64,000 nt of DNA, from NCBI RefSeq assembly GCF_012273655.1, contig NZ_JAAWWP010000010.1, positions 1-64,000 on the forward strand. The letters are read 5' to 3'. The position numbers were made by a program, and so were the translations under genes. Under the pieces are notes generated by a model that worked only from the letters and a program-made list of their open reading frames with translations, did no database searches and was not told where the DNA came from. This DNA is from Streptomyces physcomitrii. GTDB lineage: Bacteria; Actinomycetota; Actinomycetes; Streptomycetales; Streptomycetaceae. Of this stretch, positions 6,121 to 23,627 are shown piece by piece. Each line of letters begins with the position of its first letter. Position 1 is the stretch's first letter.

Positions 6121-7227
6121 GTGGGTGTGAGGAGTGTGGACACACTGGAAGGCCGCCGCGGCGCCTCTGCTTCACCCCCCGCGGAGCCCTCGGGCCGCGC
6201 CGGGAGAGGCCGCGCCGAGCTGCCCGGCCTGCTGCGCCGGGCCCGTGCCCCGCGCACCCCCCGGCTCTGGTTCGAGGTCCTGCTGATCGGCGTCAGTTAC
6301 TGGACGTATTCCTTCATCCGCAACGCGGTACCCGAGCGGCGGGGCCGGGCGCTGGCCAACGCCGACTGGCTGTGGCGCCTGGAACAGGGCCTCGGCACCG
6401 GCTTCGAGCACGCCGCGAACCGGGCCGCGGACTCGGTGACCTGGCTGGTCGTGGGCATGAACTACTACTACGCGACCTTGCATTTCGTGGTCACGCTCGG
6501 TGTCCTCGTCTGGCTCTACCGGCGCCATCCGGGCCGCTACGCCGCCACCCGCCTGGTCCTGTTCTTCACCACCGCCGTGGCCCTGGTCGGTTACTACGTG
6601 TATCCGCTCGCCCCGCCCCGGCTGCTCCCCGGCGAGGGCTTCGTCGACACCGTCCTCGTGCACGACACCTGGGGTTCGATGGCCTCCGGCGATCTGAAGA
6701 CGGTCTCCAACCAGTACGCGGCGATGCCCTCCATGCACATCGGCTGGTCGCTCTGGTGCGGGCTGACGATCTTCGCGCTGGCCAGGGCGCCGTGGGCGAG
6801 GATCCTCGGGCTGCTCTACCCGGTGGCCACCCTGATCGTCATCGTGGCCACCGCCAACCACTTCTGGCTGGACGCGGTCGGCGGCGTCCTCTGCCTCGCC
6901 TTCGGCTTCGCCGTGGCCCGCCTCTGGTACGGGTCGCTGCCCTACGCCCTGCCGCGGCAGGTGGAGCGGGGCCGGGCGAGAACGCGGGCCGCACCGGTCC
7001 CGGGAGCCGTGGCGGCGTCGGCCTCCACCCCGCAGCAGGGCGCCTCCGCCCGGCACCCCCGGGGAGCCTCCACCCGGCGGACGAGCGGCACGGTGGAGCC
7101 CGTCCGGCGCCATGTGCCCGAGGACTGGACCGGGCGCCCGGCACCGCCCGAGGGGCCGGCCCCGCCGCCTGCGCCGGAGCGCTCGGCCGCGCCGCCGCCG
7201 ACCGGCGGGCCGCCTCAGGCCCCGTAG
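6121..7227 (+). CDS. PAP2-superfamily membrane phosphatase (AUR1/inositol-phosphoceramide-like)
   Basis: Integral membrane lipid phosphatase or phosphotransferase of 368 residues. It has about five to six membrane segments between residues ~45 and 275. Two of the three PAP2 motifs are clear: PSMHIGW (C2, with the acid/base His) and ANHFWLDAVGG (C3, with the nucleophile His and its Asp partner). The C1 Lys/Arg motif is weak, as in the AUR1-like subgroup. The last ~90 residues are a Pro/Ala/Arg-rich disordered cytosolic tail. The gene converges on glnE and their 3' ends overlap by 13 nt. The substrate is unknown. Confidence 0.85.
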   Translation: MGVRSVDTLEGRRGASASPPAEPSGRAGRGRAELPGLLRRARAPRTPRLWFEVLLIGVSYWTYSFIRNAVPERRGRALANADWLWRLEQGLGTGFEHAANRAADSVTWLVVGMNYYYATLHFVVTLGVLVWLYRRHPGRYAATRLVLFFTTAVALVGYYVYPLAPPRLLPGEGFVDTVLVHDTWGSMASGDLKTVSNQYAAMPSMHIGWSLWCGLTIFALARAPWARILGLLYPVATLIVIVATANHFWLDAVGGVLCLAFGFAVARLWYGSLPYALPRQVERGRARTRAAPVPGAVAASASTPQQGASARHPRGASTRRTSGTVEPVRRHVPEDWTGRPAPPEGPAPPPAPERSAAPPPTGGPPQAP

Positions 7228-10205
7228 AACCGCTCCTCCACCACCGCGCGGGCCCGGCGGGTGATCCGGCGGTAGTCCTCCAGGAGGTCGCCGACATGCC
7301 CGGGGCCGTAGCCGAAGTAGCGGCCGACCGCGGCCAGCTCCCGGCTGTCGGAGGGGAAGGTGTCGCCGGCCCGGCCGCGGACCAGCATCACGGCGTTGCG
7401 CACCCGGGCGGCGAGCACCCAGGCCTCGTCGAGGATCTGCGCCTCCTCGGTCGCGAGGAGCCCGGCGGCGTGCGCGGCGGCCAGCGCCTCGCGGGTACGG
7501 GTGGTGCGCAGCCCCGGTTCCTCCCAGGCGTGCTGGAGCTGGAGCAGCTGCACGGTCCACTCGACGTCGGAGAGCCCGCCCCGGCCGAGCTTGGTGTGCA
7601 GGGTCGGATCGGAGCCGCGCGGCATCCGCTCGGACTCCATCCGGGCCTTGAGCCGCCGGATCTCGCGTACCGCGTCGTCGCCGAGCCCCTCGACCGGGTA
7701 CCGCAGCGGGTCGATCAGCTCGACGAACCCGGCGGCCAGCTCCGGGTCGCCCGCGACCGGCTCGGCGCGCAGCAGTGCCTGCGCCTCCCAGACGAGGGAC
7801 CAGCGCCGGTAGTAGGCCGCGTAGGAGGCGAGGGTGCGCACCAGGGGACCGGAGCGGCCCTCCGGGCGCAGGTCGGCGTCGATCAGGAGCGGCGGGTCGG
7901 AGCTGGGCAGCTGGAGCAGCCTGCGCATCTCGGCGACGACCTGGTTCGCGGCCTGCGCGGCCTCGTGATCGTCCACGCCCTCGCGGGGCTCGTGCACGAA
8001 GAGCACGTCCGCGTCGGAGCCGTAGCCCAGCTCGTGGCCGCCGAAGCGGCCCATGCCGATGACGGCGAAACGGGTGGGCAGGGTGTCGCCCCAGCCCTCG
8101 CGGACCACGGCGCGCAGGGTCCCGGCGAGGGTGGCGGCGGTGATGTCGCTGACCGCGCCGCCGGTCCGGTCCATCAGGGCGCCGGGGTCGAGCTCGGCGG
8201 GGCTCTCCTCGGTGCGGTAGGAGGCGACGATGTCGGCGGCGGTGGTGCGGAAGAGTTCGCGGCGGCGCACGGCCCGGGCGGCGGCGACCGCCTGCTCGCC
8301 GTTCGCGGCGCGGGAGACGGCGGCGAGGACCTCCTGTTCGAGGGCGCCGTGCTCGCGGGGGTCGAGGGCCTCGGTACCGAGCAGGTTGACCGCCTCGGGG
8401 GCGCGCATCAGCAGGTCGGGGGCGAGCCGCCCGGCGGAGAGCACCCGGGCGAGGTTCTCGGCCACGGTGCCCTCGTCGCGCAGCAGCCGCAGGTACCAGG
8501 GGGTCTGGCCGAGGGCGTCGGAGACCTTGCGGAAGCCGAGGAGGCCCGCGTCCGGGTCGGCGGAGTCGGCGAACCAGCCGAGCAGCACCGGCAGCAGGGT
8601 GCGCTGGATGGCGGCCTTGCGGCTGACGCCGGAGGCGAGCGCCTCCAGGTGGCGCAGGGCGGAGGCGGGGTCGGCGTAGCCGAGGGCGACCAGGCGTTCG
8701 CGGGCCGCCTCCGCGCTCAACCGGGCCTCGGTGGGCGCGAGTTGGGCGACGGCGTCGAGCAGCGGCTGGTAGAAGAGCTTCTCGTGCAGTCGGCGCACCA
8801 CGGAGTTGTGGCGGCGCCAGGCGCGGTTCAGCTCGGTGATCGGCTCCCGGCGCAGGCCGAGGGAGCGCCCGATGCGGCGCAGGTCGGCGTCGTCCTCGGG
8901 CAGCAGGTGGGTGCGCCGCAACTTGTAGAGCTGGATGCGGTGTTCGAGGGTGCGCAGGAAGCGGTAGGCGTCGTCGAGCTGGGTGGCGTCGACCCGGCCC
9001 ACGTACCCCCCGGCGGCGAGTGCCCGCAGCGCGTCGAGGGTGGTGCCGCTGCGCAGCGAGCGGTCCGAGCGGCCGTGCACCAACTGCAGGAGCTGGACGG
9101 CGAATTCGACGTCCCGCAGCCCGCCGGGGCCGAGCTTGAGTTCGCGGTCGAGTTCGGCGGCGGGGATGTTGTCGACGACCCGGCGGCGCATCTTCTGCAC
9201 GTCGGGGACGAAGTTCTCGCGCTCGGCGGCCCCCCAGACCAGCGGGGCGAGGGTCTCGACGTACTCCGCGCCCAGCTCCGCGTCCCCGGCGACCGGGCGG
9301 GCCTTCAACAGGGCCTGGAACTCCCAGGTCTTGGCCCAGCGCTGGTAGTAGGCGAGGTGGCTGCTGAGGGTGCGGACCAGGGGGCCGTTGCGGCCCTCGG
9401 GGCGCAGGTTGGCGTCGACCGGCCAGATGCTGCCCTCGACGGTGGTCTCGGAGCAGATCCGCATCAGATGCGAGGCGAGCCGGGTGGCGGCCTGCACGGC
9501 CTTGCCCTCGTCGGCGCCCTCCCGGGGCTCGCCGACGAAGATGACGTCCACGTCGGAGACGTAGTTCAGTTCGTGGCCGCCGCACTTGCCCATCGCGACG
9601 ACCGCGAGCCGGCAGAGCCGGTCGTCCTCGGGGGCGGCCTGGCACGCCATCGCGAGGGCCGCGCGCAGGGTGGCGGTGGCCAGGTCGGCGAGTTCGGCGG
9701 CGGTCTGGTCGACCTGGGTGGTGCCGCAGACGTCGCGGGCGGCGATGGAGAGCAGGCAGCGCCGGTAGGCGACGCGCAGCGCGACCGGGTCGCGGGCCTC
9801 GGCGAGCCCGCGCTCGAACTCCTCCACCCCCGGGTGGAGATCCTGCGGCTCGTAGGTGACCAGGGCCTGCCAGTCGCCCGGGTGGCGGGCGAGGTGGTCG
9901 GCGAGCGCCTCGGAGGAGCCGAGCACCCCGAGCAGCCGGTCCCGCAGCGGCTTCGCGGCGATCAGGGTGTCGAGGAGTTCCCGGCGCGCGGTGTCCTCGG
10001 GCTGCGCCTCGACGAGGCGGACGAGGCCGAGCAGCGCGAGGTCGGGGTCGGCGGCCTGGCCGAGGGCGTCCAGCATCACCGGGTCGGTGCGTACGGCGTC
10101 CATGGCCTCGCCGGCGAGGAGGCGCTCGGCCGCCGAGGGGTCGGTGAACCCGTGCCGGAGCAGTCGCGTGAACAGACTGCTCCGTCGCCCCTGCGGCACC
10201 GACAT
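7215..10205 (-). CDS. glnE: Bifunctional glutamine synthetase adenylyltransferase/deadenylyltransferase
   Basis: Adds AMP to or removes it from a Tyr of glutamine synthetase in response to nitrogen status. At 996 residues it is full length. Two nucleotidyltransferase modules are present, each with the GxG(K/R)xGGxEL..YxSDxD signature: VVAMGKCGGHELNYVSDVD in the N-terminal deadenylylating half and VIGMGRFGGHELGYGSDAD in the C-terminal adenylylating half. Both Asp pairs are intact, so both activities should be functional. The ATG at 10205 (MSVPQGRRSS) is preceded by AGGAGG-like sequence at 10211-10216. It sits about 13 kb from a GlnA-type gene, as in the Streptomyces glnE-glnA2 neighbourhood. 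Confidence 0.96.
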   Translation of the reverse strand: MSVPQGRRSSLFTRLLRHGFTDPSAAERLLAGEAMDAVRTDPVMLDALGQAADPDLALLGLVRLVEAQPEDTARRELLDTLIAAKPLRDRLLGVLGSSEALADHLARHPGDWQALVTYEPQDLHPGVEEFERGLAEARDPVALRVAYRRCLLSIAARDVCGTTQVDQTAAELADLATATLRAALAMACQAAPEDDRLCRLAVVAMGKCGGHELNYVSDVDVIFVGEPREGADEGKAVQAATRLASHLMRICSETTVEGSIWPVDANLRPEGRNGPLVRTLSSHLAYYQRWAKTWEFQALLKARPVAGDAELGAEYVETLAPLVWGAAERENFVPDVQKMRRRVVDNIPAAELDRELKLGPGGLRDVEFAVQLLQLVHGRSDRSLRSGTTLDALRALAAGGYVGRVDATQLDDAYRFLRTLEHRIQLYKLRRTHLLPEDDADLRRIGRSLGLRREPITELNRAWRRHNSVVRRLHEKLFYQPLLDAVAQLAPTEARLSAEAARERLVALGYADPASALRHLEALASGVSRKAAIQRTLLPVLLGWFADSADPDAGLLGFRKVSDALGQTPWYLRLLRDEGTVAENLARVLSAGRLAPDLLMRAPEAVNLLGTEALDPREHGALEQEVLAAVSRAANGEQAVAAARAVRRRELFRTTAADIVASYRTEESPAELDPGALMDRTGGAVSDITAATLAGTLRAVVREGWGDTLPTRFAVIGMGRFGGHELGYGSDADVLFVHEPREGVDDHEAAQAANQVVAEMRRLLQLPSSDPPLLIDADLRPEGRSGPLVRTLASYAAYYRRWSLVWEAQALLRAEPVAGDPELAAGFVELIDPLRYPVEGLGDDAVREIRRLKARMESERMPRGSDPTLHTKLGRGGLSDVEWTVQLLQLQHAWEEPGLRTTRTREALAAAHAAGLLATEEAQILDEAWVLAARVRNAVMLVRGRAGDTFPSDSRELAAVGRYFGYGPGHVGDLLEDYRRITRRARAVVEERFYGA

Positions 10206-10931: not shown

Positions 10932-11553
10932 GGAGCGGGCGGTCCGGCTCTCCCCGGCATCGCCCTGAGCGCCCTCCCGGCGTCCCTCGGGCGGAGCGGG
11001 CGCCACTCGGGCTCCCGATCCGCCGATGCGGGCAGCGGGCCGGGCGACCCCGGTACGGGCGGGGCGCGTACCCGATCCGGAAGCCGTCCGTCCACGCAGG
11101 TCACAGCAGGCCCGACTCGGGGCCGCGGAAATCGGCGGGGCCGCGCGAAAACCACACCGGGAAGCCCGCATCGAGTAGTAATTAAAAGGCAGACAAAAAC
11201 CGTGCAATCGGGGAACCGTCACTACGCGTTGTGAGCGAGTGTGGCCCTGGTCACGTTTTAAAGCGGACGCAGACCCTCACCTCTCGCAGCATTACACACG
11301 GAATAGTGCGCCATTTCCGTTTTCCGCCCCCGGGGCATGCGGGCACGCACCGTAAGGGGCGGTTGACCGTCCGGAGCGGCGCATTTAGCTTCGGTGCCAT
11401 ACGGAAAACGCAGTGAGAGTGCACGAATAGGCAGGCGGAGAAATTATTCCGCGCCGCCGCCGCGGCCCTTTTGGACGGGCCCGGACAGTGGGTCCCGCCC
11501 CGGCCAGTCCGGAAATTCGCCTCCTCCCCCCACCTGCGAAAGGGCTCTACCGC
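10932..11553. other. AT-rich leader region upstream of the RiPP cluster
   Basis: 622 bp without a convincing gene. The first ~230 bp have normal GC content. From about 11161 to 11480 the DNA is strikingly AT-rich for this genome, with runs such as TAATTAAAAGG, GTTTTAAAG, CATTACACACGGAATAG and GAAATTATTCC. This is the usual look of a regulated Streptomyces promoter region. It is the only long upstream region of the cluster and probably holds its main promoter. Confidence 0.6.
11363..11391 (+). promoter_or_regulatory. Candidate sigma-70-type promoter of the RiPP cluster
   Basis: TTGACC at 11363-11368 is followed by a 17-bp spacer and TAGCTT at 11386-11391. Transcription would start near 11398 and give a 5' leader of about 155 nt before the acyl-CoA dehydrogenase start. 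Confidence 0.45.
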
Positions 11554-12735
11554 ATGCCCGAAACGCATTTCCCCGCAAGCCAGGCCGAATGGGTCCGCAC
11601 CTGCCTCGACCTGTCCCCCGAGGGGGCGGCCTTCTGGCTGGCCTCCCTGGAGGAGGTCTGCGCGGCGGCGGTGGCCCCGGCCGCGGCCGCGGTGGACGAG
11701 GAAGGGGAACCTCCGTTCGCGGCGCTCAAGGCCCTCGCGGAGATCGGCGCCTTCGGGGTGCAGATCCCGCGTGAGCAGGGCGGGCTCGGCTTCGGGAACG
11801 CGCTGGCCGCCCTGGTGGTGGAGCGGACCGCGCGGTCCTGCGCCTCGACCGCGGCGATCCTGATGTTCCACTACCAGGTGGTGCACCGGACCCTCGGGCA
11901 CGCCCCGGCCGAGGTGCGCGAGCGGCAGCTGCCGCCGATGGCCAGCGGGGAACTGCTCGCCGCGAGCGCCTGGACCGAACCGGGCGCGCGGACCAAGACC
12001 GATGTACGCACCCGGCTCACCGAGCGGGCCGGCCGGTTCACCGTGACCGGCACCAAGACCTACTGCACCGGTCTCGGCACGGCCGGGGTGATCGACGTCC
12101 TCGCCGACGCCCGCACCGAGCAGGGCCAGGGGCCCACCTTCGTACGGGTGCCCGCCGACGCGCCCGGGGTCGCCCGGGACGAGGTCTACCGGATGCTCGG
12201 CCTGCGCGGCACCAGCACCGGCACCGTGGTGCTGCGCGAGGCCGAGGTGGCGGAGTCGGCGGTGCTCGGCGGGATCGGCAGCGCCCCGGCGCTGATGCGG
12301 GCCAACCACGAGACCCCGCTCAACCCCGGGCTGCTCGCCCTCGGCATCGCCTCGGCCGCGCTCGGCACCGTCACCCGGTCCGCGCTCCCGCCGCGAACGG
12401 AACACGAACCGGAGGCCAAGCCGCTCTCCCAGGCCAAGACCCTGCAACTCGCCCGGAGCACCCTCGCCCTGGACGCCGCCTACGCCTACGCCGGGCACCT
12501 CCTGAACCGGGCGGCGCGCTTTCCCGAGCAGGCGCATCTGGCGGCCAGCCAGCTGAAGGCCTCGGCGACCGGCACCGCGGAACAGGTCACCCGGGAACTC
12601 CTGCATGTCGCGGGTTCCCGCGGATTCCTCGCCGATTTCGCACTGGAACGCCATCTGCGGGACGCGCAGGCCACCGCGCTGATGGGACCGGGAAACGAAC
12701 TCTGCCTGCAACGCGTCGCCGACGCACTGGCCTGA
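11554..12735 (+). CDS. Acyl-CoA dehydrogenase-family flavoprotein (first gene of RiPP cluster)
   Basis: FAD enzyme of 393 residues with the acyl-CoA dehydrogenase order: N-terminal helical domain (FGVQIPREQGGLG), middle beta domain (ASAWTEPGARTKTDV, then GRFTVTGTKTYCTG), and C-terminal helical domain ending in HVAGSRGF and ALMGPGNEL, whose Glu is where many family members carry the catalytic base. No acyl carrier protein, ligase or electron-transfer flavoprotein gene is nearby, so it may act on a peptide or an amino-acid-derived substrate instead of an acyl-CoA. AAAGGG stands about 9 nt before the ATG. The next gene follows after 28 bp. Its role in the cluster is inferred only from position. 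Confidence 0.85.
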   Translation: MPETHFPASQAEWVRTCLDLSPEGAAFWLASLEEVCAAAVAPAAAAVDEEGEPPFAALKALAEIGAFGVQIPREQGGLGFGNALAALVVERTARSCASTAAILMFHYQVVHRTLGHAPAEVRERQLPPMASGELLAASAWTEPGARTKTDVRTRLTERAGRFTVTGTKTYCTGLGTAGVIDVLADARTEQGQGPTFVRVPADAPGVARDEVYRMLGLRGTSTGTVVLREAEVAESAVLGGIGSAPALMRANHETPLNPGLLALGIASAALGTVTRSALPPRTEHEPEAKPLSQAKTLQLARSTLALDAAYAYAGHLLNRAARFPEQAHLAASQLKASATGTAEQVTRELLHVAGSRGFLADFALERHLRDAQATALMGPGNELCLQRVADALA

Positions 12736-12763: not shown

Positions 12764-13669
12764 ATGACGACAACCAGCGAGCACCCGGCACCCCCGCACC
12801 TCAAGCCGCCGACCATCGGCGCGGGCTTCCTCTACCACTGCTCCCCGGAATTCGCCCGGCTGTACCAAGAGCTCGTCGCCTGCGGCGGACGTATCGATTT
12901 CGTCGAATACCTCGCCACCCACTTCGGCTCCGATGTGGAGTACGTCGCCGAGGTCAACGCCGGGCTCGGGAACCCGCCCTCCACGCTGCACTGCTACGAG
13001 TACATGATCGGCAGCGTCGACCGCCCCGACGCGGCCACCGTCGCCAAGCTCCAGCGGATGGTCGAGGCCGCCAACTGCCAGTACATCGGCGAGCACGTGG
13101 GCATGATGGGCACCACCGAGCAGTATTCGGGGACCTTTCTGCAGCCCTTCGGCACCGACGAGCAGACCGAGACCTTCATCCGCAATCTGCGCGAGGTCAA
13201 GGAGCAGGCGGGCTGCGCGCTCACCATCGAGAACCAGTCCCAGGTCTACAACCGGATCGGCCCGCGCTCCATCTGCGAGCAGGTGCGCGACATCGCGGTC
13301 GGCGCCGATGTCGGCATCCTGCTCAGCCTGTCGAACTTCATCATCGCCGAGCGCTTCGTCCCGATGGACCGCGAGCGCGAGATCGCCGCGATCCCGCTGG
13401 AGTACGTCTGGCAGGTGCACCTGCCGCTGGGCAACGCCGCCCAGCTGAACGACCCGGACCTCGGCCTCGACTGGCGCCGCGCCGAGCAGCGCTGGGCCAA
13501 CGAGACGCTGGTGCAGCTCTTCAAGGAGCCCTCCTTCAAGCCGGTCTCGGTGGTCTTCGAGATCGAGGACGCCGGCACCCCCTCGCACGCCACCCCGGAG
13601 GAGCTGCGGGACGCCCTGGAGTGGGCGCGCGAACTCCTCGGCGAGGACACGAAGGTGGAGGTGCGCTAA
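12764..13669 (+). CDS. DUF692 / MNIO-type multinuclear non-haem iron oxidase (divergent)
   Basis: TIM-barrel protein of 301 residues resembling the MNIO (DUF692) enzymes that modify RiPP precursors, such as MbnB of methanobactin and TglH. Recognisable metal-site segments are E110-H111 (GEHVGMM, family SEH), E156-N157 (TIENQSQ, family LEN), N191 in LLSLSN (family LLDxNN), H219 (WQVHLPLG, family EIHLAGH) and E266/E268 (VVFEIED, family LIExD). The usual Asp of LLDxNN is Ser here, and I cannot find the family's DTHD segment, so this is a diverged branch. GGAAGG lies before the ATG. The stop overlaps the partner gene as TAATG. The nearby precursor lacks Cys, Asp and Glu, so its chemistry is probably not the known Cys or Asp reactions. 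Confidence 0.75.
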   Translation: MTTTSEHPAPPHLKPPTIGAGFLYHCSPEFARLYQELVACGGRIDFVEYLATHFGSDVEYVAEVNAGLGNPPSTLHCYEYMIGSVDRPDAATVAKLQRMVEAANCQYIGEHVGMMGTTEQYSGTFLQPFGTDEQTETFIRNLREVKEQAGCALTIENQSQVYNRIGPRSICEQVRDIAVGADVGILLSLSNFIIAERFVPMDREREIAAIPLEYVWQVHLPLGNAAQLNDPDLGLDWRRAEQRWANETLVQLFKEPSFKPVSVVFEIEDAGTPSHATPEELRDALEWARELLGEDTKVEVR

Positions 13670-14517
13670 TGGCACTGCGCGATGTGCAGGTCTTCCTCGC
13701 CGAGTACGTGCGCGACCGCGGGGTGCGCGAGCGCTGCCGCGAGGAGGGCGGGCTCGACGCGGTCCTCGGCCCCCGCGCCCTCACCGCCGAGGAGCGGCAG
13801 CTGATCACCACGATCGACCTGGACGACCTCAGCAAGGTCGCCGAGACGGTGCTGCGGGAGCGCTTCGACCGGCTCAGCTCGGTCTTCGCCCTGCTCTTCG
13901 AGCACCTCGCCCCGCACACCGACGTCTCCGCCCTCTACCGCCGCTTCGACGACGAGCACCGGCACGGCTGGTGGCAGCGGCGCCGCGAGATCCGGCGCTT
14001 CGAGGCCTATGTCTCGGACTTCATCATCCGCGAGCAACTGCCGCCGTACCTGCTTGACCTGGTCCGCCTCTGCGCCTACATCACCACCGTCGCGGAGTCC
14101 CCGAAGGCCGCGGCCCCCGACCACGCCGACCTGCCCGGGGCCGAGGCGGTGCGCGCCAACTACGCGGTGCGCCTGCGCCGCCCGTACGCCGTGCTGAGCA
14201 TGCGCTACGACGTGCTGCCGCTGCTCGACGAGTCGGACACCGTGCAGCTGGTCACCACGCCCACCCCGCGCCGGGTCCTGGTCCAGCGCAGCTGGCAGGA
14301 GCACAAGCGCTGCCAGGTCTTCGACCTCGGTGCGGAGCCGCTGGTCGAGGCGATCGGCGAAGAGCTGCTGACCGTCGGCGAACTCGCGGGCAGGCTCCCC
14401 CAGTTCGGCCATGCCGAGCTGTACGAGGAGGTCGCCGCCCTGCACCGGGACGGCATCGTGCACCTCGTCGTCCCCCCAGAACTCGCTGGTGACCTCGCCC
14501 TGCGGGGCGCGGGCTGA
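13669..14517 (+). CDS. MNIO partner protein with C-terminal winged-helix/RRE-like region
   Basis: Protein of 282 residues translationally coupled (TAATG) to the MNIO gene, the arrangement seen for MbnB-MbnC and TglH-TglI pairs. Residues 1-50 (LRDVQVFLAEYVRDRGVRERC, then LTAEERQLITTID) resemble the small helical module found in several RiPP-associated families. The middle is helical and rich in Arg, Trp and Tyr. Residues ~205-270 (RRVLVQRSW, VFDLGAEPLVEAIGEELLTVGELAG, ALHRDGIVHLV) have the pattern of a winged helix or PqqD-like recognition element that could bind the precursor. The RRE assignment is my inference; the partner role follows from gene order and coupling. Confidence 0.65.
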   Translation: MALRDVQVFLAEYVRDRGVRERCREEGGLDAVLGPRALTAEERQLITTIDLDDLSKVAETVLRERFDRLSSVFALLFEHLAPHTDVSALYRRFDDEHRHGWWQRRREIRRFEAYVSDFIIREQLPPYLLDLVRLCAYITTVAESPKAAAPDHADLPGAEAVRANYAVRLRRPYAVLSMRYDVLPLLDESDTVQLVTTPTPRRVLVQRSWQEHKRCQVFDLGAEPLVEAIGEELLTVGELAGRLPQFGHAELYEEVAALHRDGIVHLVVPPELAGDLALRGAG

Positions 14518-14615
14518 CCAGTGGGAGCGCCTGCCCCGGCCCGGGCCGAGGCGGAGCGCTGCTGTCGAAGAACCGGCGATTCCCGCCGGACCGCCCAAGG
14601 AATGAGGAGAACACC

Positions 14616-14777
14616 ATGCAGAAGCGTCGCAGCGCAGGCCCCGGCACCATCGTGGTCAAGTTCACCGGTTCCACCGGGACCGCCGCGGCTCCGGCCGCCG
14701 CCGTCACCACCGGCACCGGCCGCCGCACCAGCGGCCCCGGCACCATCGTGGTGAAGTTCACCGGCAACAACGCCTGA
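14616..14777 (+). CDS. RiPP precursor peptide with two repeated core segments
   Basis: 53-residue ORF starting MQKRRSAGPG, with GAGGAG 6 nt before the ATG. It contains two copies of GPGTIVVKFTG, at residues 8-18 and 40-50. Each is preceded by a dibasic RR-(S/T)-(A/S) segment (residues 4-7 and 36-39), and a Thr/Gly/Ala-rich linker joins them. The peptide ends NNA. At the DNA level the copies differ at synonymous positions (GTC/GTG, GGT/GGC, CGT/CGC), which indicates selection on the peptide. Nearly all codons end in G or C. There is no Cys, Asp or Glu and almost no leader before the first copy. It lies 98 bp after the MNIO partner gene. A two-core RiPP precursor is the best reading. Confidence 0.82.
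   Translation: MQKRRSAGPGTIVVKFTGSTGTAAAPAAAVTTGTGRRTSGPGTIVVKFTGNNA
14638..14764 (+). repeat. Direct repeat encoding the two core segments
   Basis: A ~31-bp unit beginning GGCCCCGGCACCATCGTGGT occurs at 14638-14668 and again at 14734-14764. The offset is 96 bp (32 codons) and only silent differences occur inside the shared part. It arises from duplication of the core-coding segment. Confidence 0.85.
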
Positions 14778-14849
14778 ACCAAGGCGACTTCGGCCCGGAG
14801 CACCACCGGGTGAGACCCTCCCGGCGGTGCCCTGAACGGCCCGAGGAGG

Positions 14850-14884
14850 CGGGCGGTCCGCGCCTTCAGCTCGCGGACCGCCCG
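14850..14884 (+). terminator. Perfect 13-bp stem-loop after the precursor gene
   Basis: Arms CGGGCGGTCCGCG (14850-14862) and CGCGGACCGCCCG (14872-14884) flank a 9-nt loop, 72 nt after the precursor stop. There is no U tract. As in other RiPP operons it may cause partial termination or protect the 3' end, so that precursor mRNA exceeds mRNA for the downstream enzymes. Confidence 0.7.
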
Positions 14885-15018
14885 TCCCGGCGGCACCGTA
14901 TGCCGCCCCCGCCTGCCACCACCAGGCCATAGGGCAACAGGCCTCGTCCCAGGCGGCATCGACACCCCCCGCCCCCCAACTCAGCATGCCCGCAGCCCAG
15001 TCAGAGGGAGCCTCAGCC

Positions 15019-15753
15019 ATGCCCGTCCCCGGAGCAGACGGCGGACCCGCACGGTCCAGCGTCCTGGACCTGCTGCGCGAGCGGTCCAGCGTACGGAAGT
15101 TCACCTCCGAGCCGGTGGACCCCGAGCTGCTCGACGCGGTGCTCGAAGCGGCGCTGCGGGCGCCGACCTCCTTCAACTTCCAGCCGTACTCCCTGATCGT
15201 GGTGACCGAGGAGCGCCGCAGAAAGGAGCTGGCGGACATCCTGCGCAAGGAGTTCGTCGGCGAGTGCGCCGCCTTCGTCCTGGTCTGCGGCGACCTCTCG
15301 GCACTGCCCCGCAAGGGCGAGACCTACGGGGTGCCGCTCGACGACCGGCTCGCCGACGCCAGCCTCTCCGCGACCATCGACGCCTCGATGGTCGGCATGT
15401 GCCTCTCGCTGGCCGCGAGTTCGGTGGGCCTCGGCTCCGTCATGGTCGGCGCGGTGCGCAACGCCCCGGCGGCGGTGGCCGAGTTGTGCGCCCTGCCCCC
15501 GTCGGTGACCCCGCTCTTCGGGATCTGCCTGGGCCGCCCCGCCGAGGTGCCGCCGCCGAGGCCCCGGCTCCGCAGCGACCTGGTGGTGCACCGGGAGCAC
15601 TACCGCGACGCCGCCCGCGAACGCGCCGCCCTGCCGAGCGCGGCCACCCTGCGCAAGCCCGGCGGCGACCTCTCCGCGGGCGACCTCGCCGAGTGGCGCG
15701 GCCAGGTCGTCAAGGGCCTGCGCCTCTCCCGCCGCCGGGACGAGCTGCCCTGA
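15019..15753 (+). CDS. Nitroreductase-family flavoprotein
   Basis: FMN oxidoreductase of 244 residues. The FMN-phosphate segment RERSSVRKFTSEPVD and the APTSFNFQPYSLIVV segment are typical of the nitroreductase fold, as are the later ASMVGMCLSLAASSVGLGSVMVG helix and LFGICLGRP. I prefer the ATG at 15019 because AGAGGGAG precedes it at good spacing; an in-frame ATG at 14986 would add 11 residues. It is the first gene after the stem-loop. In RiPP pathways this fold performs dehydrogenation (azoline oxidation) or ene-reduction, but the precursor has no Cys, and Ser/Thr heterocyclisation would need a cyclodehydratase that I do not see. Confidence 0.85.
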   Translation: MPVPGADGGPARSSVLDLLRERSSVRKFTSEPVDPELLDAVLEAALRAPTSFNFQPYSLIVVTEERRRKELADILRKEFVGECAAFVLVCGDLSALPRKGETYGVPLDDRLADASLSATIDASMVGMCLSLAASSVGLGSVMVGAVRNAPAAVAELCALPPSVTPLFGICLGRPAEVPPPRPRLRSDLVVHREHYRDAARERAALPSAATLRKPGGDLSAGDLAEWRGQVVKGLRLSRRRDELP

Positions 15754-15854
15754 GCGGCAGCGAACTCCCGTACACACAGGGGCCGTTGAGCCCCGGTACA
15801 CGGCGGCGCGGGCAGCACCAGACCAGCCAGACGGAGACGGAGGTGGACGGACGG

Positions 15855-17705
15855 ATGTGCCGCATCTACGGACACATGGGCGGCGGGGCCTTGCCCGAGG
15901 ACCTGCGGCTGACCGGCGCCGCGCTGCGCCACGGCGGCCCCGACGGGCACTACCTCGACGAGGGCGGCGGCTGGGCGCTCGGCGCGACCCGGCTCGCCGT
16001 GATGGCCCCCGACCAGGGCGCGCAGCCCTACCGTCACGGTCCGGTGCGGGTCGTCTTCAACGGCGAGATCTACAACCACCGTGCGCTGCGGGCCCAGTTG
16101 GCCCGGGACGGCTACCACATCGCCGACCGGTGCGACGGCGCCGTGCTCCCCGCGCTCTACCACCGCTACGGTCTCTCCTTCACCGAGCACCTGGACGGCA
16201 TGTACGCGCTGGCGGTCCTGGACCTGCGCGCGGAGCCGAAGCTGGTGCTCAGCGTCGACGAGAGCGGCGTCAAACCGCTCTACTACCACCGCGACCGGCA
16301 GGGCGGCCTCTCCTTCGCCTCCGAACCCGGCGCCCTCGGGATCCTGTGCGGCGCGGGCGCCCGGCTGCGGCCCGAGGCCCTGGACACCTACCTGACCACC
16401 AAGACGCCGCTCGGCCCGCGCACCGTCTTCACCGACATCACGGCGATGGAGCCCGCCGAGACCCTGGTCGTCACCCCCGGCCGCCCGCCGCGCCCCTACC
16501 GCCGCCGCGCGCCCGCCGTCCCCGCACTGCCCGCGGGGAGTCTGACCGAGGCCGCCGACGGGCTGCGGTCGCTGCTGCGCGCGGAGACCGGCCGGCTCGC
16601 GGTGGCCGACGCCCCGGTGGCCGCGGTGCTCAGCGGCGGCCTCGACTCCTCCCTGGTGACCGGGCTGCTCGCCCGGGAGATCCCCGGAGTGCACTGCTTC
16701 CACATCCGCTACCGGGGCTCCTGGCCCGCCGACGAGTCCGGCCACGCCCGCACCGCGGCCCGCGCCTTCGGCGCCCGGCTGCACGAGGTCGTCCTCGACC
16801 CCGCCCGGATACCCGAGGAACTCCCGCGCACCGTACGGGCCTTGGGGCAGCCCAACGCCGATCCGATCACCGTGAGCACGCTCGCCCTGTTCCGCGCGGT
16901 GCGCGAGGCCGGCTTCACCGTCGCGCTGACCGGAGACGCCGCGGACGAACTCTTCGGCGGCTACGACCGCACCCGCGCCGCCGTCACCGCCGAGGGCGAC
17001 TGGGCGGGCGATTACGTGCGCGCCCTCGCCGCGGTGCCGCCCGCGCTGCGCGCCGCGCTCTACCACCCGGAGTACCGGGCACTGCTGCGCGGCACCACCA
17101 CGGCCGAGCAGGAGCTGCTGCGGCGGCTGCGCGGCCGGGACGGCGACCGCCTCGCCGCGCTCACCGAGATCGAGACCGGCCTGCGGATGCCCGCCTACCA
17201 CCTGCGCCGGGTGGACCATCTGAGCATGGCCGGTGCCGTCGAGGTGCGGCCGCCGTTCTGCCAGCGCTCGGTCACCGGCGCCGCCCGGCAGCTGCCCGAT
17301 CATCTGAAGGTGCACGGCGGGGTCGGCAAGCGGGTGCTCCAGGAGGCCGCCCGCGGACTGGTCCCGGAGTCCGTGCGCACCCGCGTCAAACAGCCCTTCA
17401 CGCTCCCCGTCGCGGCGATGCTGACCCCCGGCACCCCGCTGTTCGACTATGCCCGCGAGGTGCTGGCGCCCTCCGAACTCCGCTTGTCAGCACCGGAGTT
17501 GGACCCCGCCGCCGTCGCCAGGCTGCTCGACCGGCAGGCCGCGGCGCCGGACGCGACCTCGGCGCTCGCCGTCTGGTCGCTCCTCGTCTTCGAACTCTGG
17601 CGGCGCGAGGCGGGCCGGCCCCTGCCCGGCCGGGCACCCGCCCGCCACGGCACGGCAATCCGCTACGGCACGTCCGGCGCCGTACGGGCGGAGCGTGCGG
17701 CATGA
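15855..17705 (+). CDS. AsnB-type glutamine-dependent amidotransferase (asparagine synthetase-like)
   Basis: 616-residue class II amidotransferase. The ATG at 15855 is followed at once by the catalytic Cys2 (MCRIYGHMGG), which fixes the start; the N-terminal glutaminase also shows RHGGPDG-like and NGEIYNH segments. The synthetase domain carries the pyrophosphate loop SGGLDSS at ~260-266 and the GDAADELFGGYDR motif, so both half-reactions look intact. The reaction would be ATP-dependent amidation (or another acyl-adenylate chemistry) of a carboxylate. It starts 101 bp after the nitroreductase and its stop overlaps the next start as ATGA. A lasso cyclase role is unlikely because no lasso B proteins accompany it. 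Confidence 0.88.
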   Translation: MCRIYGHMGGGALPEDLRLTGAALRHGGPDGHYLDEGGGWALGATRLAVMAPDQGAQPYRHGPVRVVFNGEIYNHRALRAQLARDGYHIADRCDGAVLPALYHRYGLSFTEHLDGMYALAVLDLRAEPKLVLSVDESGVKPLYYHRDRQGGLSFASEPGALGILCGAGARLRPEALDTYLTTKTPLGPRTVFTDITAMEPAETLVVTPGRPPRPYRRRAPAVPALPAGSLTEAADGLRSLLRAETGRLAVADAPVAAVLSGGLDSSLVTGLLAREIPGVHCFHIRYRGSWPADESGHARTAARAFGARLHEVVLDPARIPEELPRTVRALGQPNADPITVSTLALFRAVREAGFTVALTGDAADELFGGYDRTRAAVTAEGDWAGDYVRALAAVPPALRAALYHPEYRALLRGTTTAEQELLRRLRGRDGDRLAALTEIETGLRMPAYHLRRVDHLSMAGAVEVRPPFCQRSVTGAARQLPDHLKVHGGVGKRVLQEAARGLVPESVRTRVKQPFTLPVAAMLTPGTPLFDYAREVLAPSELRLSAPELDPAAVARLLDRQAAAPDATSALAVWSLLVFELWRREAGRPLPGRAPARHGTAIRYGTSGAVRAERAA

Positions 17706-18715
17706 CCCGCGGCTGGATCGCCTACGCCGCCGGCAGCCCCTGCCCCACCCTGGTCCTGCTGCGCGAGGACGGCTGGCCCACCCGGCGGAGCGCGCTGAGC
17801 GGACTGCTCCACGGGGTGTACGAGACCCTGTGCGCGCGGGGCGCGGGCCACGTACTGAAGATCGCCCTGGTCTCCCCGTCCACCGCCTCCGCCGTGGGCC
17901 TCGACTACCGCTTCGTGCAGGTGGTCCCGGGCGAGCCCAACCGCCTTGAGTTCGGCGGCAGTTGCGGCCACTCCATCCTCAGCGCGGTGCTCAGCGCGAG
18001 CCGCGCCGGGACGCCGGCGCCGCTGCGGGCGGGCGACCGGGTCCGGGTGCGGGTCCTCAACAACGAGGACATCGTCGTCTGCGAGGCCTTGGAGGTCGGC
18101 CCCGCGGGCGGCCACGCCACCTTCACCGTGCGCTTCCGCCGCACCTCGCCCACCCGGCTCGGCAGCACCCTGCTGCTCGGCGAACCGGTCAGCACCCTGC
18201 CGGACGGCGGCCCGCCCTTCTCCCTGGTCTCGCTCGGCAATCCGTATGTCTTCGCGGACGCCCGGGCCTTCGGCGTGCACACCGAGGCGGAGCTGTTCGG
18301 CGCCGGGGAGCCGCTGTTCCGCCGCCTGTCGGGGCTGCGCGAGGCGGTCGCCCGGCGCCTCGGCTGGACCTCGCCCTGCTTCCCCAAGATCGCCGCACTG
18401 CTGCCCGGCGCCCAGGGCGCGCTGAGCGCCCGGGCGATCTCGGTGCCCTCCTGGCACCCCTCGCTGGCACTGACCGGCGCCACCTGCCTGGCCGCCGCGA
18501 GCGCGGTGCCCGGCACGGTACCGGCCCGCCTCGGCGCGCTGCCCGGGGAGCGGCTGACGATCCGCACCCCCGGCGGGGACTCGGTGGTCCGGGTCACCGC
18601 GAGCGCCGACCGCCTCCTGGAGGTGAGCGTCTCGCCGAAGACGGTGCGCATGGTCGCGGTGCTCGACCTCCCGGACCTGGCGCCCGCCCCCGAGCCCACC
18701 CTCTCGGCACCCTGA
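17702..18715 (+). CDS. PrpF-family isomerase/tautomerase (DAP-epimerase fold)
   Basis: 337-residue protein with the PrpF layout: an N-terminal AAGSPCPTLVL segment, the first active-site region FGGSCGHS, SLGNPYVFADA, and the C-terminal HPSLALTGATCLAAASAVPGT, which matches the PrpF TGAxCxAxAxxxPG signature closely. Known members isomerise 2-methylaconitate or tautomerise 4-oxalomesaconate by proton transfer. Cys residues are present in both active-site regions. It is coupled to the AsnB-like gene by an ATGA overlap, suggesting successive steps on one substrate. The true substrate is unknown. Confidence 0.8.
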   Translation: MTRGWIAYAAGSPCPTLVLLREDGWPTRRSALSGLLHGVYETLCARGAGHVLKIALVSPSTASAVGLDYRFVQVVPGEPNRLEFGGSCGHSILSAVLSASRAGTPAPLRAGDRVRVRVLNNEDIVVCEALEVGPAGGHATFTVRFRRTSPTRLGSTLLLGEPVSTLPDGGPPFSLVSLGNPYVFADARAFGVHTEAELFGAGEPLFRRLSGLREAVARRLGWTSPCFPKIAALLPGAQGALSARAISVPSWHPSLALTGATCLAAASAVPGTVPARLGALPGERLTIRTPGGDSVVRVTASADRLLEVSVSPKTVRMVAVLDLPDLAPAPEPTLSAP

Positions 18716-18786: not shown

Positions 18787-20340
18787 GTGCACACCTCCCC
18801 CGGCCACGGCGGCCCGGCCGCCCCCGCCCCGTACGACCTCCTGGTCCGCGGCGGCACCGTCGTCACCCCGCGCGGCAGCGAGCGCGCGGACATCGCCGTC
18901 CGCGCGGGCCGGATCGCCGCGCTGCTGCCGCCGTCCGGGAACGGCAGCGGCGCGGGCCCGGCGGCGCGGGCCGCGCGGGTGCTGGACGCCTCCGGGCTGC
19001 ATGTACTGCCGGGGCTGATCGACTCCCATGTGCACTTCCGCACACCCGGGCTGACCCACAAGGAGGAGTGGAGCACCGGCTCCCGGGCGGCGGTCGCGGG
19101 CGGCGTCACCACCGTCATCGACATGCCCAACACGGTGCCGCCCCTGGTCGAACCCGCCGAACTGGACCGCCGCCGCGCCCTGATCGAGGGCCGCAGCCTG
19201 GTGGACTACCGCTTCCACGCGGGCATCGACACCACCCGTATCGAGGCGATGCGGGAGTGGCCGCGGGGCGCCGGGAGTTCCTTCAAGGTCTTCCTCAGCG
19301 GCCACCACACCGCGCCGACCGTGGTCCGCGAGGAGGCCGATCTGCGGCGGATCTTCGCCCTCGCCGCCGAGGGCGGCGCCACCCTGCTCTTCCACTCCGA
19401 GGACGACACCGTCTTCGCCCTCCTCGACCGCTGGCAGCCCGCCCCCACCCGGTACGCGGACTACGCGCGGCACCGGCCGCGCACCGGGGCGCTGGTCGCC
19501 ACCGCGAAGCTGGTGCGGCTCGCGGCGGAGTACCGGGTGGCCACCCATGTGGTGCACGTCGCCACCCGCGAGGAGGCCGACCTGCTCGCCGCCGCCGCGG
19601 CCGACGGCATCCCGGTCACCTTCGAGGTGACGGGTCATCACCTCACCTTCGTGGACGCGGACATCAGCAGGCTCGGCCCCCGGATCAGGCTCCGCCCCGC
19701 GATCCGCGACGACCCCGACCGGCGGCGGCTCTGGGAGGCGGTCCACGAGGGCGAGGCCGCCACCATCGGCAGCGACCACTCGCCGCACACCGTCGAGGAG
19801 AAGGCCCGCCCGGTGCCCGACGTGCCGCCGGGACTGCCCGGCGTCCAGGAGCTGTTCGGCACCGTCTGGCACGGGCTGCGCAGCCGCAGGCCCGAGGAGT
19901 CTCCGGACACCCTGCTGCCGCTGCTCGCCGCCCGACTCGCCCTGCGCCCGGCCCAGTTGTTCGGCCTGGCCTCCCGCAAGGGCAGCATCGAGGCGGGCAA
20001 GGACGCCGACCTCGTCCTGGTGGACGCGGCGGCGCCCTGGACGATGACCCCCGACCGGGTGCACGCCAAGTGCGGCTGGTCCGCGTACGAGGGGGCGCCG
20101 CTGCTCGGGGTGGTGCACACCACGGTGCGGCGGGGCCAGGTCGTCTACCAGGAGACGGGCGGGCGGGGCGAGTTCGGGGTCCCGGACGGGCAGTGGCTGG
20201 CCGCGCCGGAGATCCCGGCGGGGACGCCCGCGTACGGGGACACGGCGGCGGCGGACGGACGGACGGCGGGCAACGGGCACCCGGGGAAGCCGGGGCGCGG
20301 ACACGCGGCGGAGCCGGGAGACGCGTGCAGCCTGCACTAA
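18787..20340 (+). CDS. Dihydroorotase/hydantoinase-like amidohydrolase
   Basis: Cyclic-amide hydrolase of 517 residues. Metal-binding motifs run in order: DSHVHFR (HxH), SSFKVFLSG with the Lys expected to be carbamylated, HSEDD, HVVHVAT, and GSDHSPH with the catalytic Asp. It ends with the usual beta-sandwich strand (GSIEAGKDADLVLVD). The GTG at 18787 has GGAG 6 nt upstream. In this cluster it could open or, in reverse, close an imide or dihydropyrimidine-like ring formed after the amidation step. The final ~60 residues are low-complexity Gly/Ala and probably unstructured. A housekeeping pyrC role is unlikely given the context. Confidence 0.85.
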   Translation: MHTSPGHGGPAAPAPYDLLVRGGTVVTPRGSERADIAVRAGRIAALLPPSGNGSGAGPAARAARVLDASGLHVLPGLIDSHVHFRTPGLTHKEEWSTGSRAAVAGGVTTVIDMPNTVPPLVEPAELDRRRALIEGRSLVDYRFHAGIDTTRIEAMREWPRGAGSSFKVFLSGHHTAPTVVREEADLRRIFALAAEGGATLLFHSEDDTVFALLDRWQPAPTRYADYARHRPRTGALVATAKLVRLAAEYRVATHVVHVATREEADLLAAAAADGIPVTFEVTGHHLTFVDADISRLGPRIRLRPAIRDDPDRRRLWEAVHEGEAATIGSDHSPHTVEEKARPVPDVPPGLPGVQELFGTVWHGLRSRRPEESPDTLLPLLAARLALRPAQLFGLASRKGSIEAGKDADLVLVDAAAPWTMTPDRVHAKCGWSAYEGAPLLGVVHTTVRRGQVVYQETGGRGEFGVPDGQWLAAPEIPAGTPAYGDTAAADGRTAGNGHPGKPGRGHAAEPGDACSLH

Positions 20341-20383: not shown

Positions 20384-21787
20384 GTGACGCGTTCAGCCGG
20401 TTCACCCGTCCTCGCCTCGCGGGATGTCGCCCTGCTCTGGGGGACGACGATCTGCGACTCCGGGGCCACCTGGATCATCCGTATCGTCATCTTCGTCCAG
20501 GTCCTGGAACACCACTCGACCTCGGCACTCGCGGTGGTCGAACTCGTCGGCGTACTGCCCTCGTTGCTCTTCATGCCGCTGGCCGGGACGATCGCCGACC
20601 GTTACAGCGCCCGGGTCCTCTCGCTCATCGCGATGACCGCCCAGACCCTGTGCACCGGCGCCCTCTTCCTCGCCTTCGACCACGGCCCGGCCGCCATCGC
20701 CCCGGTCTACGCCCTGCTGACCCTCGCCAACTCCCTCTGGCCGCCCGCCCGGCAGACCTGGCTCTACCTGATGGTGGCCCCGCACCAGCGCACCGCCGCC
20801 AACGGCGCGATCGGCTCGGTGCAGGGCCTGATGACCGTGGTCGGCGGCGCCGCGGGCGGCGTGCTCACCGCCTGGCAGCCCGGCGGAACCATCCTGGTGG
20901 CACTGGGAGTTCAGACCGTCGCCGTACTCGCCGTCTCCTTCGTACGGACCCCGGGACGGACATCCGCGCACCGCACCGGCACCGACGGGCACCCGCGCCC
21001 GGAGACGGGCCGGCAGACGGCAGCCGCCCAGGCGACTCCGCAGCCGGAGTCAACTCCCGTCACCGGCAAGCAACATGACGGCCCCTCAACCAGGCTCCCC
21101 CGCCCACCGATCGACACGGAGGAAGCCGCCCGCCCCTCCCTGCGCCGGGAGGTGCGCGAGGGCGTCACGGTCGTGGGCCGCTACCCGCTCGCCCGCTCCC
21201 TGATCTGGGTGGGCCTCGCCTGGGGCTTCATCAGCGGCGGCTTCAACGTCCTGGTCGCGGGCCTCGCCCTGAACGTCCTGCACGGCGACAGCTCGGTACT
21301 GAGCCTGTTCTACGTGGTGGACGGCACCGCCGTGCTGGTCGGCAGCCTCCTCGCGGCCCGCATCCGCCGCACCCGGCATCTGCGCTACTACGCGCTCGCC
21401 TACGTCGGCCAAGGCGTCTTCTGGGCACTGATGTTCACCTCCGGGCACATCTGGCTCGGGGCCGCCCTCTTCGGCGCCATGCGCCTGGTCAGCGGCGTGA
21501 TCATCGCCCTGGACACCACGATCCTGCTCGACACCGTCCCGGAGGCCTTCCGGGGCCGGGTCACCAGCCTGCACATGACCAGCTACAACGCCGTCTCGCA
21601 GCTCTCCCTCGCGGTGATCAGCGGACTGCTCGCCGTGGTCGGCATCGAGCCGGTCGGCATCGCCACCGGCGTCCTGTCCGCCCTCGTCGGCCTCCTGTGG
21701 TGGACGACCACCGCCCGCCACAACCACGCGGCGTACCTGGGCGCGGCATCCCCGCAACCGACGGCGACGGCCTCGCTGCCGCGCTGA
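20384..21787 (+). CDS. MFS exporter (probable product efflux of the RiPP cluster)
   Basis: 467-residue major facilitator with about 10-12 membrane helices. The motif-A-like loop reads GTIADRYSARVLS, and a long hydrophilic central loop (~185-250, rich in Thr, Gln and Pro) separates the halves. It resembles EntS-like or macrolide-type exporters. The GTG at 20384 follows GGGGAGG at ~20367-20373. It is the last gene of the co-directional cluster and the only transporter in it, so export of the product is the natural inference. No ABC transporter or dedicated leader peptidase is present. Confidence 0.85.
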   Translation: MTRSAGSPVLASRDVALLWGTTICDSGATWIIRIVIFVQVLEHHSTSALAVVELVGVLPSLLFMPLAGTIADRYSARVLSLIAMTAQTLCTGALFLAFDHGPAAIAPVYALLTLANSLWPPARQTWLYLMVAPHQRTAANGAIGSVQGLMTVVGGAAGGVLTAWQPGGTILVALGVQTVAVLAVSFVRTPGRTSAHRTGTDGHPRPETGRQTAAAQATPQPESTPVTGKQHDGPSTRLPRPPIDTEEAARPSLRREVREGVTVVGRYPLARSLIWVGLAWGFISGGFNVLVAGLALNVLHGDSSVLSLFYVVDGTAVLVGSLLAARIRRTRHLRYYALAYVGQGVFWALMFTSGHIWLGAALFGAMRLVSGVIIALDTTILLDTVPEAFRGRVTSLHMTSYNAVSQLSLAVISGLLAVVGIEPVGIATGVLSALVGLLWWTTTARHNHAAYLGAASPQPTATASLPR

Positions 21788-22265: not shown

Positions 22266-23627
22266 CTACAACACCGGCAGCGACTTCCGCAGCTCGAAGG
22301 CCGTGACCTCGCTGCGGTACTCCTCCCACTCCTGCTTCTTGTTGCGGAGGAAGAAGTCGAAGACGTGCTCGCCGAGGGTTTCGGCGACGAGTTCGCTGCG
22401 TTCCATCAGGGCGATGGCCTCTCCGAGGTTCTGCGGGAGGGGTTCGATGCCCATGGCGCGGCGTTCGGCGTCGGAGAGGGCCCAGACGTCGTCGTCGGCG
22501 CCGGGGCCGAGTTCGTAGCCCTCCTCGATGCCCTTGAGGCCCGCGGCGAGCAGGACCGCGTAGGAGAGGTAGGGGTTGGCGCCCGAGTCCAGGGAGCGGA
22601 CCTCGACGCGGGCCGAGCCGGTCTTGCCGGGCTTGTACATCGGGACGCGGATCAGGGCGGAGCGGTTGTTGTGGCCCCAGCAGATGTACGAGGGGGCCTC
22701 GCCGCCCGCGCCCGCGGTGCGCTCGGAGCCGCCCCAGATCCGCTTGTAGGAGTTGACCCACTGGTTGGTGACCGCGGAGGTCTCGGCCGCGTGGCGAAGC
22801 AGGCCGGCGATGAAGGAGCGGCCGACCTTGGAGAGCTGGTACTCGGAGCCGGACTCGTAGAAGGCGTTGCGGTCGCCCTCGAAGAGGGAGAGGTGGGTGT
22901 GCATGCCGGAGCCGGGGTGCTCGGAGAAGGGCTTGGGCATGAAGGTGGCCTGGACGCCCTGTTCGAGGGCGACCTGCTTCATGACCAGGCGGAAGGTCAT
23001 GATGTTGTCGGCGGTGGAGAGGGCGTCGGCGTAGCGGAGGTCGATCTCCTGCTGGCCGGGGCCGCCCTCGTGGTGGGAGAACTCCACCGAGATGCCCATC
23101 GACTCCAGCATGGTGATCGCCTGGCGGCGGAAGTCCATGCCGATGTTCTGCGGGGTGTGGTCGAAGTAGCCGGAGTTGTCGGCGGGGGTGGGGCGGCTGC
23201 CGTCGAGGGGGCGGTCCTTGAGCAGGAAGAACTCGATCTCGGGGTGGGTGTAGAAGGTGAAGCCGAGGTCGGAGGTCCGCGCGAGGGCGCGCTTGAGCAC
23301 ATAGCGCGGGTCGGCGAAGGACGGGGAGCCGTCCGGCATCAGGATGTCGCAGAACATCCGGGCGGTGCCGGGGGCCTCGGCCCGCCAGGGCAGCACCTGG
23401 AAGGTGGCCGGGTCGGGCTTGGCGATCATGTCGGACTCGTAGACCCGGGCGAAGCCCTCGATGGCCGAGCCGTCGAAGCCGATGCCCTCGTCGAAGGCCT
23501 GCTCCAGCTCGGCCGGGGCCACCGCGACGGACTTGAGGAAGCCCAGCACGTCCGTGAACCACAGGCGTACGAACCGGATGTCGCGCTCCTCCAGGGTGCG
23601 GAGCACGAATTCCTGCTGCTTGTCCAT
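22266..23627 (-). CDS. glnA2: GlnA2-type glutamine synthetase-like ligase (gamma-glutamylpolyamine synthetase type)
   Basis: 453-residue GS-fold ATP ligase. The N-terminal MDKQQEFVLRTLEERD and the whole chain resemble what I remember of Streptomyces coelicolor GlnA2 (SCO2241), reported to gamma-glutamylate polyamines instead of ammonia. Catalytic segments are present: DGSAIEGF, HPEIEFFLL, SHHEGGPGQQEIDLRYADAL, the HTHLSLF loop and NRSALIRVP. I do not see the adenylylation Tyr motif (NLYDLP) of true GlnA, consistent with the GlnA2 group. A 362-bp region upstream separates it from the divergent DUF3105 gene. The symbol rests on remembered similarity. Confidence 0.88.
   Translation of the reverse strand: MDKQQEFVLRTLEERDIRFVRLWFTDVLGFLKSVAVAPAELEQAFDEGIGFDGSAIEGFARVYESDMIAKPDPATFQVLPWRAEAPGTARMFCDILMPDGSPSFADPRYVLKRALARTSDLGFTFYTHPEIEFFLLKDRPLDGSRPTPADNSGYFDHTPQNIGMDFRRQAITMLESMGISVEFSHHEGGPGQQEIDLRYADALSTADNIMTFRLVMKQVALEQGVQATFMPKPFSEHPGSGMHTHLSLFEGDRNAFYESGSEYQLSKVGRSFIAGLLRHAAETSAVTNQWVNSYKRIWGGSERTAGAGGEAPSYICWGHNNRSALIRVPMYKPGKTGSARVEVRSLDSGANPYLSYAVLLAAGLKGIEEGYELGPGADDDVWALSDAERRAMGIEPLPQNLGEAIALMERSELVAETLGEHVFDFFLRNKKQEWEEYRSEVTAFELRKSLPVL

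Follow-up and report, generated by a model that had tools for sequence, protein, structure and literature searches.

The locus raises the question of what a reading frame for 53 residues, which encodes the same short peptide twice beside the genes of an MNIO enzyme and its partner protein, is there to make. In this report the window means the whole 64,000-nt stretch of Streptomyces physcomitrii DNA that was analysed. Judged from its sequence and that of its relatives, the frame very probably serves as template for a natural product whose synthesis depends on iron enzymes of an unusual branch. The features of the window are collected in the table.

Features of the cluster in the window, in order of position
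Feature	Position	Strand	Basis
Acyl-CoA dehydrogenase (ACAD)-like flavoenzyme; usual C-terminal catalytic Glu appears missing	11488..12735	+	profile matches, alignment
MNIO (PF05114), divergent branch	12764..13669	+	Pfam 64.9 bits, cut-off 25; predicted fold nearest TglH
MNIO partner, TglI type, possible RRE-like C-terminal domain	13669..14517	+	model nearest TglI and 3dee
Shine-Dalgarno GAGGAG of precursor gene, 6 nt 5' of ATG	14604..14609	+	sequence
Precursor peptide gene, 53 aa, two cores, no leader	14616..14777	+	translation; orthologues L005, L006, L014; array relatives L007-L010
Core 1, GPGTIVVKFTG	14637..14669	+	translation
Core 2, GPGTIVVKFTG	14733..14765	+	translation
15-bp hairpin 3' of precursor stop	14848..14886	+	fold z -4.2
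Nitroreductase-family flavoenzyme	15019..15753	+	PF00881; conserved in all clusters
AsnB-type glutamine-dependent amidotransferase	15855..17705	+	TIGR01536 312 bits, cut-off 267; N-terminal Cys2 conserved
PrpF-type isomerase-like protein	17702..18715	+	PF04303; conserved in all clusters
Dihydroorotase/allantoinase-like amidohydrolase (start approximate)	18820..20340	+	profile matches
MFS exporter-like protein	20384..21787	+	PF07690; conserved in all clusters

The precursor gene and its repeated core

The precursor gene translates to MQKRRSAGPGTIVVKFTGSTGTAAAPAAAVTTGTGRRTSGPGTIVVKFTGNNA, followed by the stop codon. Its two cores are spaced 96 bp apart and differ in 2 of 33 bases, both at third codon positions and both synonymous. 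This 31/33 match is the top 33-nt self-match of the gene, the maxima being 24 in 1000 dinucleotide shuffles and 26 in 1000 codon shuffles, and the repeat is far beyond chance. A self-match of at least 28/33 was found in none of 789 window pieces (162 nt, on a grid with 81-nt steps), not one of which contains both cores entire. The degenerate motif GPxT[IV]VxK has only two sites in the 7.6-Mb genome, and these are the two cores.

The original prediction described two GPGTIVVKFTG cores with almost no leader and a precursor free of Cys, Asp and Glu, and translation, a check of the start and the orthologues agree with it. Seven residues stand ahead of the first core. The window precursor is genuinely leaderless, because no in-frame start lies upstream in the window, the ATG at 14616 being the first start of the frame, and because similarity to the two-core orthologues begins at M1. 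A longer leader from an upstream start was considered and rejected, as the window has no such start and the orthologues no similarity upstream.

A search with the MNIO gave seven independent relatives, six from Streptomyces and one from Streptacidiphilus. The two-core clade comprises Streptomyces sp. S465 (L005), Streptomyces NBRC 110028 (L006) and another Streptomyces (L014, genome G1030), each with two GPGTIVVKFTG cores as in the window. The tandem clade comprises three Streptomyces (L008, genome G018; L009, genome G012; L010, genome G209) and Streptacidiphilus sp. 4-A2 (L007); matches listed under G358 come from the same genome as L007, which was counted once. The array of L010 has three FGPSTVVAKNKANFADDD units and that of L009 seven FGPSTVVAKDKGGFTDAD units. 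L008 has FGPGTVVAKNKANFADDD units, at least 10 of them, a lower bound due to an N gap inside the array, and L007 has twelve copies of FGPGTVVMKGE[PT]G(G), counted in an assembly that contains frameshifts. Conservation of the repeat in related clusters, set beforehand as the check on the original prediction, was thus found, the repeat being kept and multiplied in all seven. About 7 to 10 residues precede the first GP in each precursor and none of the seven relatives has an N-terminal leader; on these sequences, the missing leader is a family trait.

The two silent sites between the window cores had been taken as a sign of selection on the peptide. By themselves they are weak evidence, and the real evidence comes from the relatives, whose core differences are synonymous only and bear the claim out. 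Between the window and L005, L006 and L014, the 22 core codons hold 5-6 synonymous and no non-synonymous differences, and the 29 other codons 4-5 synonymous and 8-10 non-synonymous ones, the amino acids of the linker changing. Among copies within one precursor, in pairwise counts that are not independent events and that point in a uniform direction throughout, L007 gives a synonymous to non-synonymous ratio of 56:0 when its 8-codon motif is compared, and L005, L006 and L014 give 5:0 each. For the 18-codon unit of L008 the ratio is 152:16, and every one of the 16 lies outside the motif and stems from the divergent last copy. Selection on the repeated core is supported by these comparisons.

The same relatives redraw the limits of the core. 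Eleven residues proved too long for the family: elsewhere NKA, DKG or GE[PT] takes the place of FTG after the Lys, and the probable core is therefore the stretch common to all copies, GP[GS]T[IV]V[VAM]K. Proteolytic release at an RR-(S/T)-(A/S) site before each core had also been proposed. The two-core clade retains KRRSA at the first site and shows GRKS or GRKT at the second; in the tandem clade no basic site precedes any core. The C-terminal NNA, suggested earlier as a recognition element, does not hold up either, as the orthologues have NA and the tandem clade has a longer tail ending in ELxAA or similar.

The family is rare, with eight genomes known as carriers. It occurs in 4 of 296 and 4 of 393 sampled Streptomyces (the samples overlap) and in 2 of 395 genomes sampled within the taxonomic family. 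Among 395 genomes sampled from 137 genera of the class, the window's own was the only one with a close MNIO, and none was found in plasmid records. A two-copy motif pattern, which covers short spacings only and would miss the 96 bp of the window, matched nothing in 396 genomes of the phylum. In the literature, no published description of the GPGT-repeat precursor family and no fitting match for the gene combination of the cluster were found.

The enzymes and genes around the precursor

The MNIO model (pLDDT 65, modest confidence) is closest in fold to TglH, with Z 21.2 and rmsd 4.0 over 260 aligned residues; DUF692 3bww follows at Z 18.9, MbnB at Z 17-18, and other TIM barrels at 15 or less. 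The partner model (pLDDT 82) is closest to TglI (8hi7/8hci; Z 14.3, rmsd 5.2, 247 aligned), and NGO1945 (3dee) comes next with Z 14.0 and rmsd 3.6 over 190 aligned residues, the following matches being about 8. Residues 154-275 of the partner match PqqD (Z 5.2) and TbtB (Z 6.6) weakly. TglH and TglI, the two nearest folds, are the two halves of one holoenzyme. These matches came from fold comparison alone, as sequence profiles found no solved structure for the MNIO or the partner, and neither partner nor precursor has a match in Pfam, NCBIfam or PHROGs.

The iron ligands of TglH are His71, His107, Glu151, Asp184, His216 and Glu258, and Fe3 is also bound by Asn187, Asp229 and His231 (PMC10880893). 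In an alignment-based mapping, which leads from the family through the canonical MNIO of the same genome (G000:C11) to TglH, five of the six Fe1/Fe2 ligands are kept as His76, His111, Glu156, His219 and Glu266, and Asn191 aligns as well. The bridging Asp184 between Fe2 and Fe3 corresponds to Ser188 in all members of the branch, the MNIO of L007 showing the same LLSLSN as the rest, and the alignment of members contains no conserved DxH motif for Fe3. Membership in the MNIO family stands by profile and predicted TIM-barrel fold; possession of the full trinuclear site does not. Because Ser replaces the bridging Asp and a conserved DxH motif is lacking, the branch is predicted to have a two-iron or otherwise altered centre, and MNIO activity cannot be assumed from family membership since conserved iron ligands are missing from the branch. 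The canonical MNIO of the same genome lies elsewhere, at G000:C11:50168-50962 (L016).

The nine genes of the cluster lie on one strand in the order ACAD-like, MNIO, partner, precursor, nitroreductase, AsnB, PrpF, dihydroorotase-like and MFS, and the ATG of the partner gene overlaps the MNIO stop. The precursor beside an MNIO, noted originally in the window, recurs with the partner gene adjoining in all eight loci. The ACAD-like, MNIO, partner, precursor, nitroreductase, PrpF and MFS genes share one transcriptional direction in 8/8, and the AsnB and dihydroorotase-like genes are present in six, not being found in the 20 kb read at L009 and L010. The MFS gene is last in the two-core clade and immediately 3' of the precursor in the tandem clade. 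No protease gene occurs among the cluster genes of the window, and neither a protease nor an ABC peptide exporter is conserved across the clusters.

Ordinary acyl-CoA dehydrogenation by the ACAD-like protein is doubtful, because all aligned members carry LMGP[GS]N at the place where the catalytic Glu of the ACAD family usually sits. The dihydroorotase-like enzyme has conserved HxH, Lys, His, His and Asp metal motifs. Identity of the AsnB protein with a lasso-type cyclase was rejected, its score being 91 bits against a cut-off of 525.

A strong hairpin follows the precursor stop in all eight loci (z -2.3 to -5.5), without a clear T-run. Its sequence is unlike between the clades, and the recurrence of the structure while the sequence differs suggests a role, possibly as an attenuator or 3' stabiliser, and perhaps in setting the level of precursor mRNA against that of the tailoring mRNA.

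Several neighbouring genes are confined to some of the loci. A JmjC-type oxygenase gene is added in two tandem-clade clusters (L008, 19104-20000; L010, about 15494-16762), and a TfuA-like gene on the opposite strand follows the cluster in only two relatives (L009, about 15770-17467; L010, 16857-18560). A SARP-type regulator lies upstream in L005 (6144-8537), L006 (6097-8535) and L014 (5999-8392), and is absent directly beside the window cluster. The latter is flanked by glnE-like (7215-10205) and glutamine synthetase-like (22266-23945) genes, both on the minus strand and named from reading the proteins, as if inserted in a housekeeping region.

Possible products of the cluster

It is highly likely that the gene encodes a RiPP precursor with several cores and neither leader nor Cys, and that the MNIO-partner pair oxidises its motif before host peptidases cleave it and tailoring turns it into a small exported product. 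The partner, probably through its RRE-like domain, would present each repeat to the MNIO. Next to nothing precedes the repeat, which means that recognition must depend on it or on sequence further downstream. The MNIO would oxidise a residue within the repeat, the candidates being Thr, the Val residues or Lys. The belief that MNIOs modify only Cys, Asp and Glu is outdated, since Phe and Asn residues (PMC12257519) and homocitrulline (PMC13174530) are also published substrates. As the cluster has no conserved protease gene, cleavage of the array into units probably falls to host peptidases. The fragments could then be tailored by the ACAD-like, nitroreductase and PrpF proteins, with AsnB and the dihydroorotase-like enzyme where present, and exported by the MFS protein. 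With many cores, one transcript would yield many product molecules, and the hairpin may raise the precursor mRNA over the tailoring mRNA. The product of the cluster is not known to match any described compound.

A possible, though rather doubtful, alternative is that the final product is not a small metabolite, and that the cluster makes the released cores themselves, as a set of peptides, modified and about 8 to 11 residues long. The conserved stretch of 8 residues is more than is needed to supply one residue, and RR or RK stands ahead of both cores in the two-core clade. On the other hand, sequence on either side of the 8-residue motif is variable, basic sites are absent from the tandem clade, the tailoring genes are of kinds usual in small-molecule metabolism, and a conserved protease and ABC peptide exporter are both lacking. 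The abundance of small-molecule enzymes would also suit a scaffold or carrier role for the repeat protein, in which a product would be assembled on it or transferred as happens in pearlin biosynthesis, its repeats acting as docking sites; TglH and TglI, the best fold matches, belong to such a carrier-peptide pathway. This is unlikely, as the scanned cluster proteins include no peptide aminoacyl-tRNA ligase-type (PEARL) protein, and the cores are internal rather than at a conserved C-terminus and contain no Cys. Least probable is a small structural or regulatory protein that lies in the cluster by chance and is no enzyme substrate, given that its gene adjoins that of the MNIO partner in 8/8 loci and that a motif present nowhere else in the genome stays fixed while its copy number varies.

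The preferred reading, a RiPP precursor processed to a small metabolite, places the cluster among the MNIO RiPPs, a known kind, with a fair chance of a new class. We propose tentatively, at somewhat less than even confidence, that in such a class the ribosomal template of a small metabolite would be an array with neither leader nor Cys, in which GP[GS]T[IV]VxK cores number up to about twelve. Its oxidation would fall to an MNIO branch that has lost both the bridging Asp and the third iron site, and the finishing steps to flavin, isomerase, amidotransferase and cyclic-amidohydrolase enzymes whose families normally serve primary metabolism. The cluster product may be a new metabolite. The natural leaderless series of 2 to 12 cores offers an approach to leader-independent substrate recognition by an MNIO-partner pair, and with the cluster one can ask if two irons are enough and which residue is oxidised in a core free of Cys. 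The chemistry of distant MNIO members is not predictable from sequence (PMC12257519). A large MNIO survey was restricted to precursors that contain Cys and whose genes precede that of the MNIO (PMC12452194), so that the GPGT-repeat family lies outside it by construction.

Comparison with known systems

Buf_EGKCG/oxazolin precursors: These MNIO substrates likewise carry a variable number of a repeated motif, but their EGKCG motifs are Cys-based, and they have a signal peptide and metal or redox-related genes (PMC12452194). The window precursor has no Cys, the 7 residues ahead of its first core leave no space for a signal peptide, and its gene comes after that of the partner rather than before the MNIO, which sets it apart from the bufferin type.

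TglHI: The 3-thiaglutamate (pearlin) pathway offers the nearest folds for the MNIO and its partner, and it also ends in a small molecule. In contrast, TglHI modifies a Cys that has been added to a carrier peptide, has a trinuclear site with Asp184 and DxH, and involves no core repeats (PMC10880893). The nine cluster proteins of the window include no PEARL ligase, and the cores are internal.

Streptomyces thermodiastaticus std cluster: Here too a Streptomyces MNIO-partner pair acts on a non-Cys residue, namely in the bis-hydroxylation of Lys-derived homocitrulline. It differs in its motif, which is SNKEWQE and not a GPGT repeat, in the presence of YcaO-TfuA and a carbamoyltransferase-peptidase, and in its other genes (PMC13174530).

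Biphenomycin-like pbs cluster: An MNIO with an RRE-bearing partner and a non-Cys substrate, Phe, is shared. Unlike the window cluster, it has a conserved leader region, an FHAFRF motif, B12 radical SAM cross-linking and a dedicated protease (PMC12257519).

Thiovarsolin: The var cluster of Streptomyces varsoviensis, which produces tripeptides from precursor repeats and encodes no protease (PMC6511847), is the nearest working analogue, although its chemistry is different. There YcaO-TfuA thioamidation takes place on APR with no MNIO, and the repeat and tailoring enzymes are unrelated; neither YcaO nor TfuA stands beside the precursor among the nine cluster proteins of the window. What the two would have in common is a repeating Streptomyces precursor with a copy number that varies among relatives, an MFS gene, no dedicated protease, and a short product from each repeat (PMC6511847).
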